Under the pieces are notes generated by a model. It worked only from the letters and a program-made list of their open reading frames with translations, ran no database searches and was not told where the DNA came from. 13,033 nt of DNA from contig JAJRTK010000185.1 in NCBI GenBank assembly GCA_024278345.1, positions 1 to 13,033 on the forward strand, in the 5' to 3' direction. Made by a program: the position numbers and the translations under genes. Positions within the stretch are counted from its first letter, which is position 1, and every line of letters begins with the position of its first letter. The DNA comes from a bacterium (GTDB taxonomy: Bacteria > CSSED10-310 > JAJRTK01). Shown here piece after piece: positions 408 through 11,012 of the stretch.

Positions 408-3128
408 TCAAGAGGCGGCCTCGATTTTGAAGCTCCACAGTCGCCAGCGGCCTAGGCTCCAGCGGTAGCGGAGGCGGGCCTTTCCCGGGGTTTTCTTTTT
501 GAGCAAGAGCAACGCCTCGACGCTGGCGGCACCATTTTCTTCAGTTTTCACGGTGATGATGGAACGCCGGGATGTTTTCCCGTGCTTCTTTCGGAAGAGC
601 TTGAGCCCGCGGTGGAACTGTTCCACGGGTTGCCGCCGCTTTTGCTCCGCGGCCAGGCTCTCGTAGATGAGACGGTAGTTCTTTTCATTGTAGAGTTCCA
701 GCATGGTGAGAGTCAGAGGCCCGAGGGCGGCGGTATCGGGCTGGGGCTCTATTTCTTGGGGAATCGGCAGATGGAAACCCAAGAGCCGCCAATCACCTCG
801 CTCGCGGCGGAAGCTGAAGTCGCCTTCGGTGGTCGCGTTGTCATAGACGAAGGCCAGCCGCACCCGATAGCCAGACAGCTTCTTGGAGCCGTTGCTGAGA
901 GGGCTTTGTCCGAGCCAATGGATCCGTCGGACATTCCCAAGAGTGGCGCGGATGTAATCAAGGCGCTCCACGAGCTCTGCCCGGGTCCATCGGCTTTGGA
1001 GATCGATGGTGGCGCGTGCGTGGACTCGGGCGGCTTGCCGTTGACGGCTGGCCTGCAAGACATTTCGGGCGGCCTCCACGAACATTTCCCCTTGTCGGAT
1101 TGTGTCAAGGGCGTGGATGGCCTCTTGGCGTGCGCCCTCCCCGGAGCGCCTGGCAAGGCGTCTCAGGGCGGGAACGGCCGTGGCCGACGCGGGTCCAAAG
1201 GCGCCAAGGCTTCGACAGGCAGCCTGGCGTAGCGGCGAAAAATCGGAGCCCAGGGCCTGGAGAAGGGCTGGGATAGCCTCAGCGGCAGCGGGACCGATTT
1301 GGCCCAGGGTCTCTGCCGCGGCCGCTCGAAGATCGTTCCCTTCGGCAGGCTGAAGAAGCTCCACAAGCCTGGGCGCGGCGCTGGCCGCGCCAGATCTGAA
1401 ACGGCCCAAGGCCTCCATCGCCGGGCCGCGAAGGGACTTGTTGTCCAAGAGCCCTGCCAGAACCGGAACCACGAGATCCGGATGAAGACCGATCCTGCCC
1501 AGCGCCGTCACGGCGGCGATTCCGTGCAAAGAGTCTTCCTTGCCAAGCTCCTTCAGAAGGAGAGGGACCGCCTTGGGGCCTGAACTCTCTAGAAGTCTCC
1601 CGGCCGTTTGGCGAACGGAAACGTCGGGATCCTGGGTTGCATCCAAGAGGATTGCCACCAGGAGATGGGAAGGCGCATGGAGAGCGGTCAGGCCGGCAAT
1701 GGCAAGCCGCCGGATAGCGGGATCGCCATCGCGGGCAAGCCCGGCGAAGGTAGGGATGAGCGCCTTCTCCCCCTGGTCACCGGCTGCTCGGATCAAGGAT
1801 TCCATGATTTGGCGGCGAATCCCGGATTTCTTGTTTTTGAGGGCTTCCTTCAGAATGGGAATCGCCTGCTTTCCCAAGAAGCCCAAGGCCCTGATCAGGC
1901 GACGCTGAACACCTGGATCGGCTTCACCGCCAAGGCGAGTCCGGAGTGCCGGGAGAACGACATGGGCCGGAGGCTCAATAGACGCGAGGATATCGGCGCA
2001 AAGAGCCCGGAGCACCGGATCCCCGTCGTCCAGACAGGCAATCACGTCAGGGATGGCGGAGGCGGCTTCCCTCCCAAGCTCTCCCAATGCCTCGGCGGCG
2101 GAACGTCTAAGGGTCGAGTCCCGTCCACGCAGGGCCTTCACAAGAGAGGGGACGGCTCGACCTCCCAGCTCTTGGAGAGCGGCCAGGGCCGGAGCCCGGA
2201 TCGAAAGGCGATCCTCGTCCTGGAGTGCCTCAATGAGCGCGGCATGGATCTCCGGGCCCATGGAACCGAGCCGGATGAGGGCTCGGGCTGCCGCAAGCCG
2301 AACCATCCGGGAACTATCCTCCAGGCGGACTTGTAGAGCCGTGACGGACTGGCGCTTCTTGCCATCGGCGGCTCCCAGCGCGGCCGCCGACGCGCTCCGG
2401 ATGCTGGGGCTTGGGTCGGAAAGTAGTTCGATGAGCCCGTCAACGGCTGGAGCGGCAGCCAGGCCAAGGTTTTCCAGGGTTTTGGCCGCACGCCAACGAA
2501 GGGATGGCCTCTTCGCACGAAGCGCAACCAGCAATCCGGGGATCGCCCGGGCCGCGGGAGCCCCCATTTCGCCTAGAGCCGTCACCGCCGCCTCGACAAT
2601 TTCCAGGGAAGGACTCTCCAGAGCTTTCTCCAGAGCCGGCACCGCCGCTGAGCCGATCCTGCCCAAAGTCGCCGAAGCACGGTCCCTCAGCTCCCAGGCC
2701 GGATCCTCAAGCGCCGCCATGAGACCGGGAATCGCGGGGCTCGCCGCCGGCCCCATCCGCCCGAGGATACGAACGGCTAAGAGCCGCGGATCAAGTGGGC
2801 GGTTCTTCAGAATTCTCACCAACGCCGGAACCGCGGGCCCGCCAATCCCCACCAGGGCGTCGGCGGCCTGGAACTGCAGATCACGCGGAGTCCGGGGCGA
2901 CTTCAGAAGCTTCATCAAAGCCGGAACAGCCGATTTCGCTGCCGGCCCGAAATCCTGAAGAGCCACCGCGGCCGAAATACGGACCTCGGGATCCGCGTCG
3001 TCGAGCTGCCGAATCAGGGCGCGAACGATGGAGCCCCCGCTACGACCCACGGCTCTCGGGACCGTTCCGAAAACCAGAAGCACCGCTGTCCACAAGAGCA
3101 GGGCTCGATTCGGGAGATAACCGCTCAT
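408..3128 (-). CDS. Exported HEAT-repeat (PBS lyase HEAT-like) solenoid protein with tandem C-terminal domains
   Basis: The protein is 906 residues. Residues 8-23 are a hydrophobic segment after a basic N-terminus, followed by an A-V-G| type cleavage site near residue 28: a signal peptide without a lipobox cysteine, so periplasmic or secreted. From about 33 to 675 there are some 16-17 HEAT repeats of 36-39 residues, with the recurring pattern A-[IV]-P-A-L...L....D..[LI]R..AA..LG.[IL]G and often a PAA or PA loop. Residues about 690-906 are not HEAT; they appear to be two related small alpha+beta domains, each ending in an aromatic strand (GDWRLLGF at 779-786, GRWRLWSF at 893-900), reminiscent of NTF2-like/DUF4019-type folds (inference). 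The ATG overlaps the mutL stop (ATGA, 3125-3128) and has only a weak upstream G-run, so translation is probably coupled. HEAT solenoids are binding scaffolds; the partner is not deducible here. Confidence 0.85.
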   Translation of the reverse strand: MSGYLPNRALLLWTAVLLVFGTVPRAVGRSGGSIVRALIRQLDDADPEVRISAAVALQDFGPAAKSAVPALMKLLKSPRTPRDLQFQAADALVGIGGPAVPALVRILKNRPLDPRLLAVRILGRMGPAASPAIPGLMAALEDPAWELRDRASATLGRIGSAAVPALEKALESPSLEIVEAAVTALGEMGAPAARAIPGLLVALRAKRPSLRWRAAKTLENLGLAAAPAVDGLIELLSDPSPSIRSASAAALGAADGKKRQSVTALQVRLEDSSRMVRLAAARALIRLGSMGPEIHAALIEALQDEDRLSIRAPALAALQELGGRAVPSLVKALRGRDSTLRRSAAEALGELGREAASAIPDVIACLDDGDPVLRALCADILASIEPPAHVVLPALRTRLGGEADPGVQRRLIRALGFLGKQAIPILKEALKNKKSGIRRQIMESLIRAAGDQGEKALIPTFAGLARDGDPAIRRLAIAGLTALHAPSHLLVAILLDATQDPDVSVRQTAGRLLESSGPKAVPLLLKELGKEDSLHGIAAVTALGRIGLHPDLVVPVLAGLLDNKSLRGPAMEALGRFRSGAASAAPRLVELLQPAEGNDLRAAAAETLGQIGPAAAEAIPALLQALGSDFSPLRQAACRSLGAFGPASATAVPALRRLARRSGEGARQEAIHALDTIRQGEMFVEAARNVLQASRQRQAARVHARATIDLQSRWTRAELVERLDYIRATLGNVRRIHWLGQSPLSNGSKKLSGYRVRLAFVYDNATTEGDFSFRRERGDWRLLGFHLPIPQEIEPQPDTAALGPLTLTMLELYNEKNYRLIYESLAAEQKRRQPVEQFHRGLKLFRKKHGKTSRRSIITVKTEENGAASVEALLLLKKKTPGKARLRYRWSLGRWRLWSFKIEAAS

Positions 3129-9441: not shown

Positions 9442-10170
9442 TTAGCGACCGTAGGCCAAGCGATCAATGAGAAAGCGGTGCAACCCCGCCAGCTCCATTT
9501 TCTCCTGCACCTTCTCGATGTCGTAGGGAACGCGCTGGAGCTGGACGCGACGGGTCTCCGTGTCGTAGAAGCCAACGCAGGAATCGGGATTGCCGTCCCG
9601 CGGCTGACCGACACTGCCAACATTGACGATATACCGCCACTCCGGGTTCAGATCGGCTTCCGGCTCACTGTAAACCTTGATCTCGCCCTCCGGCGTCATG
9701 GCAACGATGAAGGGCTGGTGCGAATGGCCTATGAAGCAGATGAACTGCTCGAAAAAAGCGAAGTTGAGGCGGGCATCCTCCGTGGTGAAGATGTAGTTCC
9801 ACATCTCCGGCTGGAACGGCGTTGAGTGGGCGAACAACAGCTCCCATTTCTCCGTGATGATGTCCAGATCCCGCAGATAGTCCACGTGCTCGCTCTTGAG
9901 CATCGAGCTGGTCCACGAGGCGGCCTGGCGTGCGTACTCATTGAAATAGGAAGTGTCGAGAGATCCGATAACCGCGTGATCGTGATTGCCGGCAAGGCAG
10001 AGCGTCACCTTTTTCCGGACGAGATCTACGCACTCGTTGGGGTCGGGACCGTAGCCCACCGTGTCTCCAAGGCAGACAAGAGAATCGTATCCCATCCTTT
10101 CGAGATGCGCCAGACAGCTTTCAAAAGCTTCGAGGTTCGAATGGATATCCGAAACGAAGGCAAGCCTCAT
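9442..10170 (-). CDS. Calcineurin-like metallophosphoesterase
   Basis: The 242-residue protein carries all metal-binding motifs of the family in order: DIHSN (8-12), GDTVGYGPDP (35-44), GNHD (61-64), AHS (114-116) and GHSH (148-151), then the NVGSVGQPRDG signature (183-193). It belongs to the small cytoplasmic COG0639-like group related to YfcE/MJ0936-type phosphodiesterases, which use two metal ions to cleave phosphodiester or phosphomonoester bonds; the true substrate cannot be deduced. No signal peptide or membrane segment. AAGGA lies just before the ATG, which overlaps the nusB stop (ATGA, 10167-10170). Confidence 0.93.
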   Translation of the reverse strand: MRLAFVSDIHSNLEAFESCLAHLERMGYDSLVCLGDTVGYGPDPNECVDLVRKKVTLCLAGNHDHAVIGSLDTSYFNEYARQAASWTSSMLKSEHVDYLRDLDIITEKWELLFAHSTPFQPEMWNYIFTTEDARLNFAFFEQFICFIGHSHQPFIVAMTPEGEIKVYSEPEADLNPEWRYIVNVGSVGQPRDGNPDSCVGFYDTETRRVQLQRVPYDIEKVQEKMELAGLHRFLIDRLAYGR

Positions 10171-11012
10171 GTTTCCTTAGTCTCCGGTTTTTCTTGGCCG
10201 CCGGCTTCGGCATCGATCGTCGAGCCACTGGATGCTTCGGTCCGGAGTCTTGCAGCCATTTCTGGTTCTGGATTCGCTTCACGCGCAGACTCTGGAGCTT
10301 CTTCCTGAACAGCGACGCGTATTTTGTCAAGCATAGCATTAATAAAAGAAGGAGTCTTCTGTTCGCCAAAGATTTTCGCGATCTCGATCGCCTCATTCAA
10401 GATCACTTTGGGCGGCTCTTTGCCATTGATCAACTCAAAGGCAGCCATCCGAAGAAGATTCCGATCGACGGCAGCCATCCTGGAAAGGCTCCATTTTTCG
10501 CTAAAACGCGATAAAAGCGGATCGATCCGGGATAGATTCTCCACCGTGCCGCGCACAAGAAAACGAGCGTAAACGATCTCTTCTCGGGTCGGTGGGCGAG
10601 GCGAGCCGTTGGGATGAGAGGAATCCTTACAGTAATCGAGCCAAATTCCGGAGTGCTTCACAAGCTCATCGAGGCATGAGGAAGCACGGGCTTTCTGTAA
10701 GCTTGATGGGGAGGGTTCTTGAAGGTGAGAATCGGGAGTCTCCTGCCCACAAGAGAGAGTGGGTTCTTGGGGGAAAGAGGCGACGAGCACTTGCCGTGAA
10801 GAGGCAGGGGATTCCTGGCAAGAAGAACCGGGAATTGGCTCCGCCGAGGAGATGGGAGGCTCTTGGGTGGCAGCCGCCGGTGTTTCCCCGTGAATGTCCA
10901 GGGCATAGATCGCCTGAAGCGCCAGGATCCGCGATCTCCGGCGCGTGCCGCCCTTCCAGCGCTGGGCGCTGCTTTCACCGCGCCCAATGGAATGTTCGGA
11001 AAACCCGTTCAA
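10167..11012 (-). CDS. nusB: Transcription antitermination factor NusB with repeat insertion and long tail
   Basis: NusB, with S10 (NusE), binds boxA RNA in antitermination complexes, for example on rRNA operons. The core is recognisable: [19 protein letters not shown] (24-42) is helix 1, and the rest of the fold runs from about 114 to 235 with [14 protein letters not shown] (147-160), [16 protein letters not shown] (179-194), [14 protein letters not shown] (203-216) and [11 protein letters not shown] (222-232). At 281 residues it is nearly twice the usual 130-165. The excess is an insertion of eight 8-residue repeats (50-113) and a polar, Glu-rich tail (about 236-281). The start is TTG, supported by a GGAGA site 7 bases upstream and by the TTGA overlap with the ribH stop (11009-11012); no in-frame ATG exists before the core. 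Confidence 0.93.
10674..10865 (-). repeat. Eight tandem 24-bp repeats inside nusB (8-residue units, consensus Q-E-P-x-x-S-S-x)
   Basis: Codons 50-113 of nusB divide exactly into eight 8-residue units with no indels. Seven of the eight start with Gln, four start with Gln-Glu followed by Pro or Ser, and all eight have Ser at position 6; five have Ser also at position 7. At the DNA level CAAGAACCC starts unit 5 (10769) and unit 7 (10721), and related words recur at 48-bp steps (10817, 10865). A ninth, more decayed unit (GETPAAAT, 42-49) may precede them. The units are diverged at third positions and elsewhere, so this is an old expansion rather than a recent slippage event. Confidence 0.85.

Follow-up and report, generated by a model that had tools for sequence, protein, structure and literature searches.

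The nusB gene in the window (the whole stretch of DNA that was analysed, 13,033 nucleotides) contains eight tandem 8-residue units, each encoded by 24 bp, at 10674-10865 on the minus strand. This repeat is real, statistically strong and unusual for a NusB, yet an old in-frame tandem duplication can account for it, and judged against the 45 other NusB sequences compared it appears to be lineage-specific. We consider it reasonably probable that the whole feature reflects an old, lineage-specific tandem duplication in a tolerant loop, which is now a disordered tether carrying Q..S motifs.

From its profile matches, the minus-strand gene at 11012-10167 is a genuine NusB. It has 281 codons, encoding 281 amino acids, and begins with a TTG codon overlapping the ribH stop; its product exceeded the curated cut-offs of both PF01029 (residues 141-231, E 1.5e-28, 100.3 bits against a cut-off of 23.1) and TIGR01951 (110.2 bits against 88.35). 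The PF01029 match marks the conserved NusB core at 10320-10592 (minus strand). In the alignment with homologues, the invariant NusB residues are kept in the core, and an arginine-rich N-terminal helix 1 precedes the other helices, which come in the expected order, the helices of the structural model being of low confidence. Helix 1 with the arginine-rich N-terminus was assigned to residues 22-41 (10890-10949, minus strand), based on this alignment and on a helix at residues 22-41 in the model. Genes for lumazine synthase and RibBA lie upstream in the order ribBA-ribH-nusB; these are the usual neighbours of nusB, and the order is the canonical one. The protein ends in an acidic, disorder-like tail (residues 237-281; 10170-10304, minus strand), recognised from the model and the composition, which is also missing from most NusB homologues.

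The initial annotation of this DNA had described eight consecutive in-phase units with an invariant Ser at position 6 and a 24/48-bp periodicity with divergence. By permutation tests and inspection of the codon columns, the units were recovered exactly at 10865-10674 (minus strand), position 6 being Ser in 8/8 units and position 1 being Gln in 7/8. Residue identity was 21/56 at lag 8 and 17/48 at lag 16, with 1-11 identities at the other lags up to 24, and the described DNA periodicity proved correct, the identity being 0.44 for a shift of 24 bp and 0.51 for one of 48 bp. A shuffled-sequence test, which had been proposed at the same time, rejected chance periodicity at both levels: the period-8 column-pair identity was 83 compared with 23.5 ± 4.1 in protein permutations (maximum 43, 2000 shuffles), and the period-24 DNA score was 320 compared with 191 ± 11 in the codon shuffle (z near 12). 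The 24-bp units are alike at 7-17 of 24 bases when compared in pairs, which is about half. Tandem Repeats Finder, run at a score of 30, does not list the array in NusB, because the DNA units are too diverged. The low identity of the units and the absence of the array from this output rule out a young minisatellite. Directly ahead of the array, the segment GETPAAAT (10866-10889, minus strand) may be a degenerate extra unit; the resemblance is weak and the segment is partly native, GET belonging to the end of native helix 1.

The bounds of the whole insertion were set by spacing and by alignment with three Treponema NusBs, the only ones that a search of genome contigs gave (viral contigs yielded none), which placed it at residues 45-113 (10674-10880, minus strand), a segment of 69 residues consisting of PAAAT and the eight units. 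It is flanked by ...LDIHGET and LDELVKHS... and separates helix 1 from helix 2. Between the helix-1 motif and a conserved Gly there are 118 residues here, compared with 31-55 residues in 42 of the 45 other NusBs and 105-107 in the other three. NusBs from the same phylum, which supplied the closest comparison genomes, have only 37-50 residues at this junction and carry no repeat. The segment therefore stands as an insertion whose 8-residue repeat is found in 0/45 other NusBs, and no homologue shows it as a conserved, non-repetitive domain. The statement that NusB has little length variation, however, has to be corrected, as the junction itself varies in most NusBs and three genomes have around 70 extra conserved residues there. 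From these alignments, the helix 1-2 junction of NusB is a length hot-spot that tolerates insertion. The open-access literature, subscription papers being outside the scope of the search, yielded no NusB with a tandem-repeat insertion.

The three long NusBs (L175-L177) matched a cyanobacterial-type NusB query over its full length with 61-69% identity. This query served purely as a search probe, and the three proteins are presumably of the cyanobacterial type. Their inserts are mutually alike, conserved, non-repetitive, helix-like and rich in Leu, Glu and Ala.

An AlphaFold2 model of the protein was obtained from a shallow alignment of 4 sequences and has a mean pLDDT of 49. The expected NusB helices are present in it, with pLDDT 50-71 in the core blocks, and the array (residues 42-101) is without secondary structure at pLDDT 26-36; the C-terminal tail likewise has low pLDDT. 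A Foldseek search with this poor model returned NusB as the top four chains (3r2d, 3r2c, 2jr0) with E values of 0.056-0.2, and because these are weak, the family assignment was taken from the sequence profiles. The 69 residues of the insert include 15 Ser, 11 Pro, 8 Ala, 7 Gln and 6 Glu, 80% of its letters are disorder-prone, and its charge-hydropathy value is right at the boundary between order and disorder. The insert is probably a disordered, surface-exposed loop, as had been suggested from the letters, and we infer that it projects from the NusB core.

Codon positions were used to examine the age of the units. For the first, second and third codon positions, the Gln column had pairwise base identities of 0.75, 1.0 and 0.43 and the Ser column of 1.0, 1.0 and 0.39, and the mean third-position identity over the whole array was 0.37, compared with 0.27 expected from composition. 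With third positions near-randomised but the first two bases of the Gln and Ser codons kept, the pattern appears to be constrained at the protein level. Redrawing synonymous codons gave a weak excess of ancestry signal in the array (p 0.03-0.08), therefore the case for common descent by DNA duplication comes mostly from the protein pattern. Neutral decay was simulated in 400 runs from eight identical units on a star tree, each run being stopped at the observed third-position identity. None of the 400 runs kept one column at 8/8 with a second at 7/8, and only 0.25% reached the observed total column identity. The star tree assumes simultaneous duplication, and a stepwise tree would weaken the inference of constraint. 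Subject to this assumption, and with comparison genomes that are of the same phylum at closest, the Gln1/Ser6 pattern looks to be under constraint and not that of a fresh minisatellite. The units are near saturation at synonymous sites, which supports the earlier description of an old, diverged in-frame tandem array.

The same data bear on whether the array could be a functionless, decaying minisatellite, tolerated in an unimportant loop and retaining its pattern as a trace of shared ancestry. Such a history would suit a genome where tandem arrays are common (55 of period at least 9 in 1.11 Mb, 40 of these having periods divisible by 3) and a junction that tolerates insertion. However, neutral decay should have lost Gln1 and Ser6, two such columns being kept in none of the simulations, and the array contains no frameshift and no stop; we therefore regard this explanation as unlikely. 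The three genomes whose NusBs are some 70 residues longer at this junction could instead indicate that the insert is a conserved subfamily insertion of the cyanobacterial type, merely repetitive-looking here. This is very improbable, as the cyanobacterial-type inserts lack repeats, have a Leu/Glu/Ala-rich composition and sit in proteins unlike the present NusB, and the NusBs of its own phylum have short junctions. The junction comparison across the 45 NusBs speaks against a conserved subfamily domain as the identity of the insert. It is extremely improbable that the repeat works at the mRNA level by providing boxA-like sites for regulation of the nusB gene by its own product. CTCTT-like stretches do arise from Ser-Ser codons, but within the insert the closest match to the boxA-like sequence of the organism's rRNA leader is 7/13, which is no better than in codon shuffles and does not support a boxA decoy in nusB mRNA.

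The invariance of Ser6 despite near-saturated synonymous sites would also be consistent with a phospho-switch, in which Hanks-type Ser/Thr kinases would modify the loop at multiple sites, and charging up to eight Ser6 residues (plus Ser7) would tune the binding of NusE/S10 or boxA RNA and thereby rRNA synthesis. Pkinase stretches in the genome number 129, corresponding to roughly 95-100 kinase genes. However, the Q-E-P-x-x-S context presents no kinase consensus open to testing and, going by sequence position, the loop would follow helix 1 at the end opposite to the arginine-rich one, and in known NusBs RNA is bound by the arginine-rich end. Multi-site Ser phosphorylation of this putative substrate loop is conceivable, and the switch as a whole is unlikely. 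We hold it to be quite unlikely that the loop is a selected multivalent array, phosphorylatable or partner-binding, by which a kinase-rich bacterium controls rRNA antitermination through NusB.

The explanation that we favour, an old duplication in a tolerant loop, would have begun long ago in the lineage, when a stretch of the NusB helix 1-2 loop would have been multiplied by in-frame tandem duplication in units of 24 bp, with some steps probably of 48 bp. The array would now be a flexible, surface-exposed loop rich in Ser, Gln, Pro and Glu, outside the folded core. The retention of Gln1 and Ser6 would fit a tether bearing several copies of a weak linear motif, not dead repeat DNA, and the role of these motifs could be to bind a partner in the antitermination complex or to be modified. 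We infer such a motif function from the sequence pattern, with the core still working as a NusB. A boxA-like sequence, GTTCTTTGAAAAC, is located in the rRNA leader upstream of the 16S gene (L093, about 2240-2262, minus strand), therefore the antitermination pathway is plausibly in use. Together with the intact arginine-rich start of helix 1, this makes it likely that the protein retains ordinary NusB function, with predicted binding of NusE/S10 and boxA RNA.

The suggestion to look for the same unit in other genes was followed with protein and DNA searches, which gave only noise across the 6.06-Mb assembly, where disordered repeats of other sequence are present; seven other genomes of the phylum also gave only noise. 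A periodicity scan covered 1.11 Mb of the assembly and 898 open frames, including some contigs picked for weak similarity to the insert, and the NusB array ranked 16th in internal periodicity, behind among others those of NuoC, a GlgB-like enzyme, a subtilase and a TPR protein. Strong protein-level periodicity was found in 11 of these 898 frames compared with 0 of 238 in two phylum relatives, which is no more than suggestive of an excess of protein-level repeats. The density of DNA tandem repeats was not raised relative to the phylum: this genome has 49 per Mb, and the two relatives have 27 and 76 per Mb. The array in NusB is one old instance of a process that recurs in this genome and is not proven to be special to it.

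Several other repeats were observed in this genome (G000). In the window, 408-3128 (minus strand) encodes a 906-residue protein consisting mostly of HEAT-like repeats that recur about every 30 residues. NuoC (PF00329; G000:C434, L068 11315-12583, minus strand) has a disordered-looking N-terminal extension of more than 200 residues, in which there is a young tandem repeat (72 bp x 3.1, 93% matches; TVAPEEPPKALPQEKSAEEASPKG). A subtilase (PF00082; G000:C250, L054 7885-11055, plus strand) carries dozens of copies of C-terminal 9-residue units, QDWLLSPSG or QDWLFTPAG, and a GlgB-like enzyme with CBM_48 and alpha-amylase domains (G000:C460, L109 9198-11807, minus strand) ends in a tail of 11-residue units, GAERAEAAEEA. 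A TPR protein (G000:C120, L172 7716-11318, plus strand) has a 69-bp x 4.9 array with 98% matches, encoding a Glu/Leu/Gln-rich 23-residue unit, and a second, 138-bp array. A 23-bp tandem unit with the palindromic core GTCACG NNNN CGTGAC, often near contig ends and also dispersed as single copies, occurs at 70-118 in the window and at L054 16225-16324, L117 7212-7296, L161 19855-19937 and L166 1-83; there were 24 in 1.11 Mb of this genome and 0 in 0.33 Mb of the two phylum relatives. Hanks-type kinases are very numerous (for example L054 3689-4741), and in about 20 of them an insertion interrupts the domain near profile position 91-102; this insertion was Ser/Glu/Gln-rich in the one that was read.

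Should the loop prove functional, it would provide a means of regulating rRNA transcription antitermination, with as many as eight equivalent sites, that standard NusBs do not have. Even if it does not, the helix 1-2 junction of NusB has room for unrelated inserts of around 70 residues, and disordered segments built from repeats are present in core proteins of a poorly sampled lineage.

Compared with known NusBs (PF01029/TIGR01951; solved structures 1tzt, 1eyv, 3d3b and 3r2c), this protein shares the core helices, the invariant residues and the ribBA-ribH-nusB neighbourhood, but it has 281 residues instead of about 140-180. The extra length comprises the repeat insertion of 69 residues that separates helices 1 and 2, an N-terminal extension of about 21 residues and the 45-residue acidic tail. 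The cyanobacterial-type NusBs share a large insertion at the same junction, but theirs is conserved, non-repetitive and helix-like without an 8-residue period. NuoC of the same genome is likewise a core protein with in-frame P/E/Q/S-rich tandem units in a segment that is not conserved; its 72-bp (24-residue) units are young and located in an N-terminal extension, whereas those of NusB are old and in an internal loop. Low-complexity and tandem-repeat flexible regions of prokaryotic proteins (PMC6821194) resemble the NusB array in having Ser/Pro/Gln-rich tandem repeats of short oligopeptides that are probably flexible. The NusB array differs in that it sits inside the fold of a small core factor and is strongly diverged, with two positions kept.
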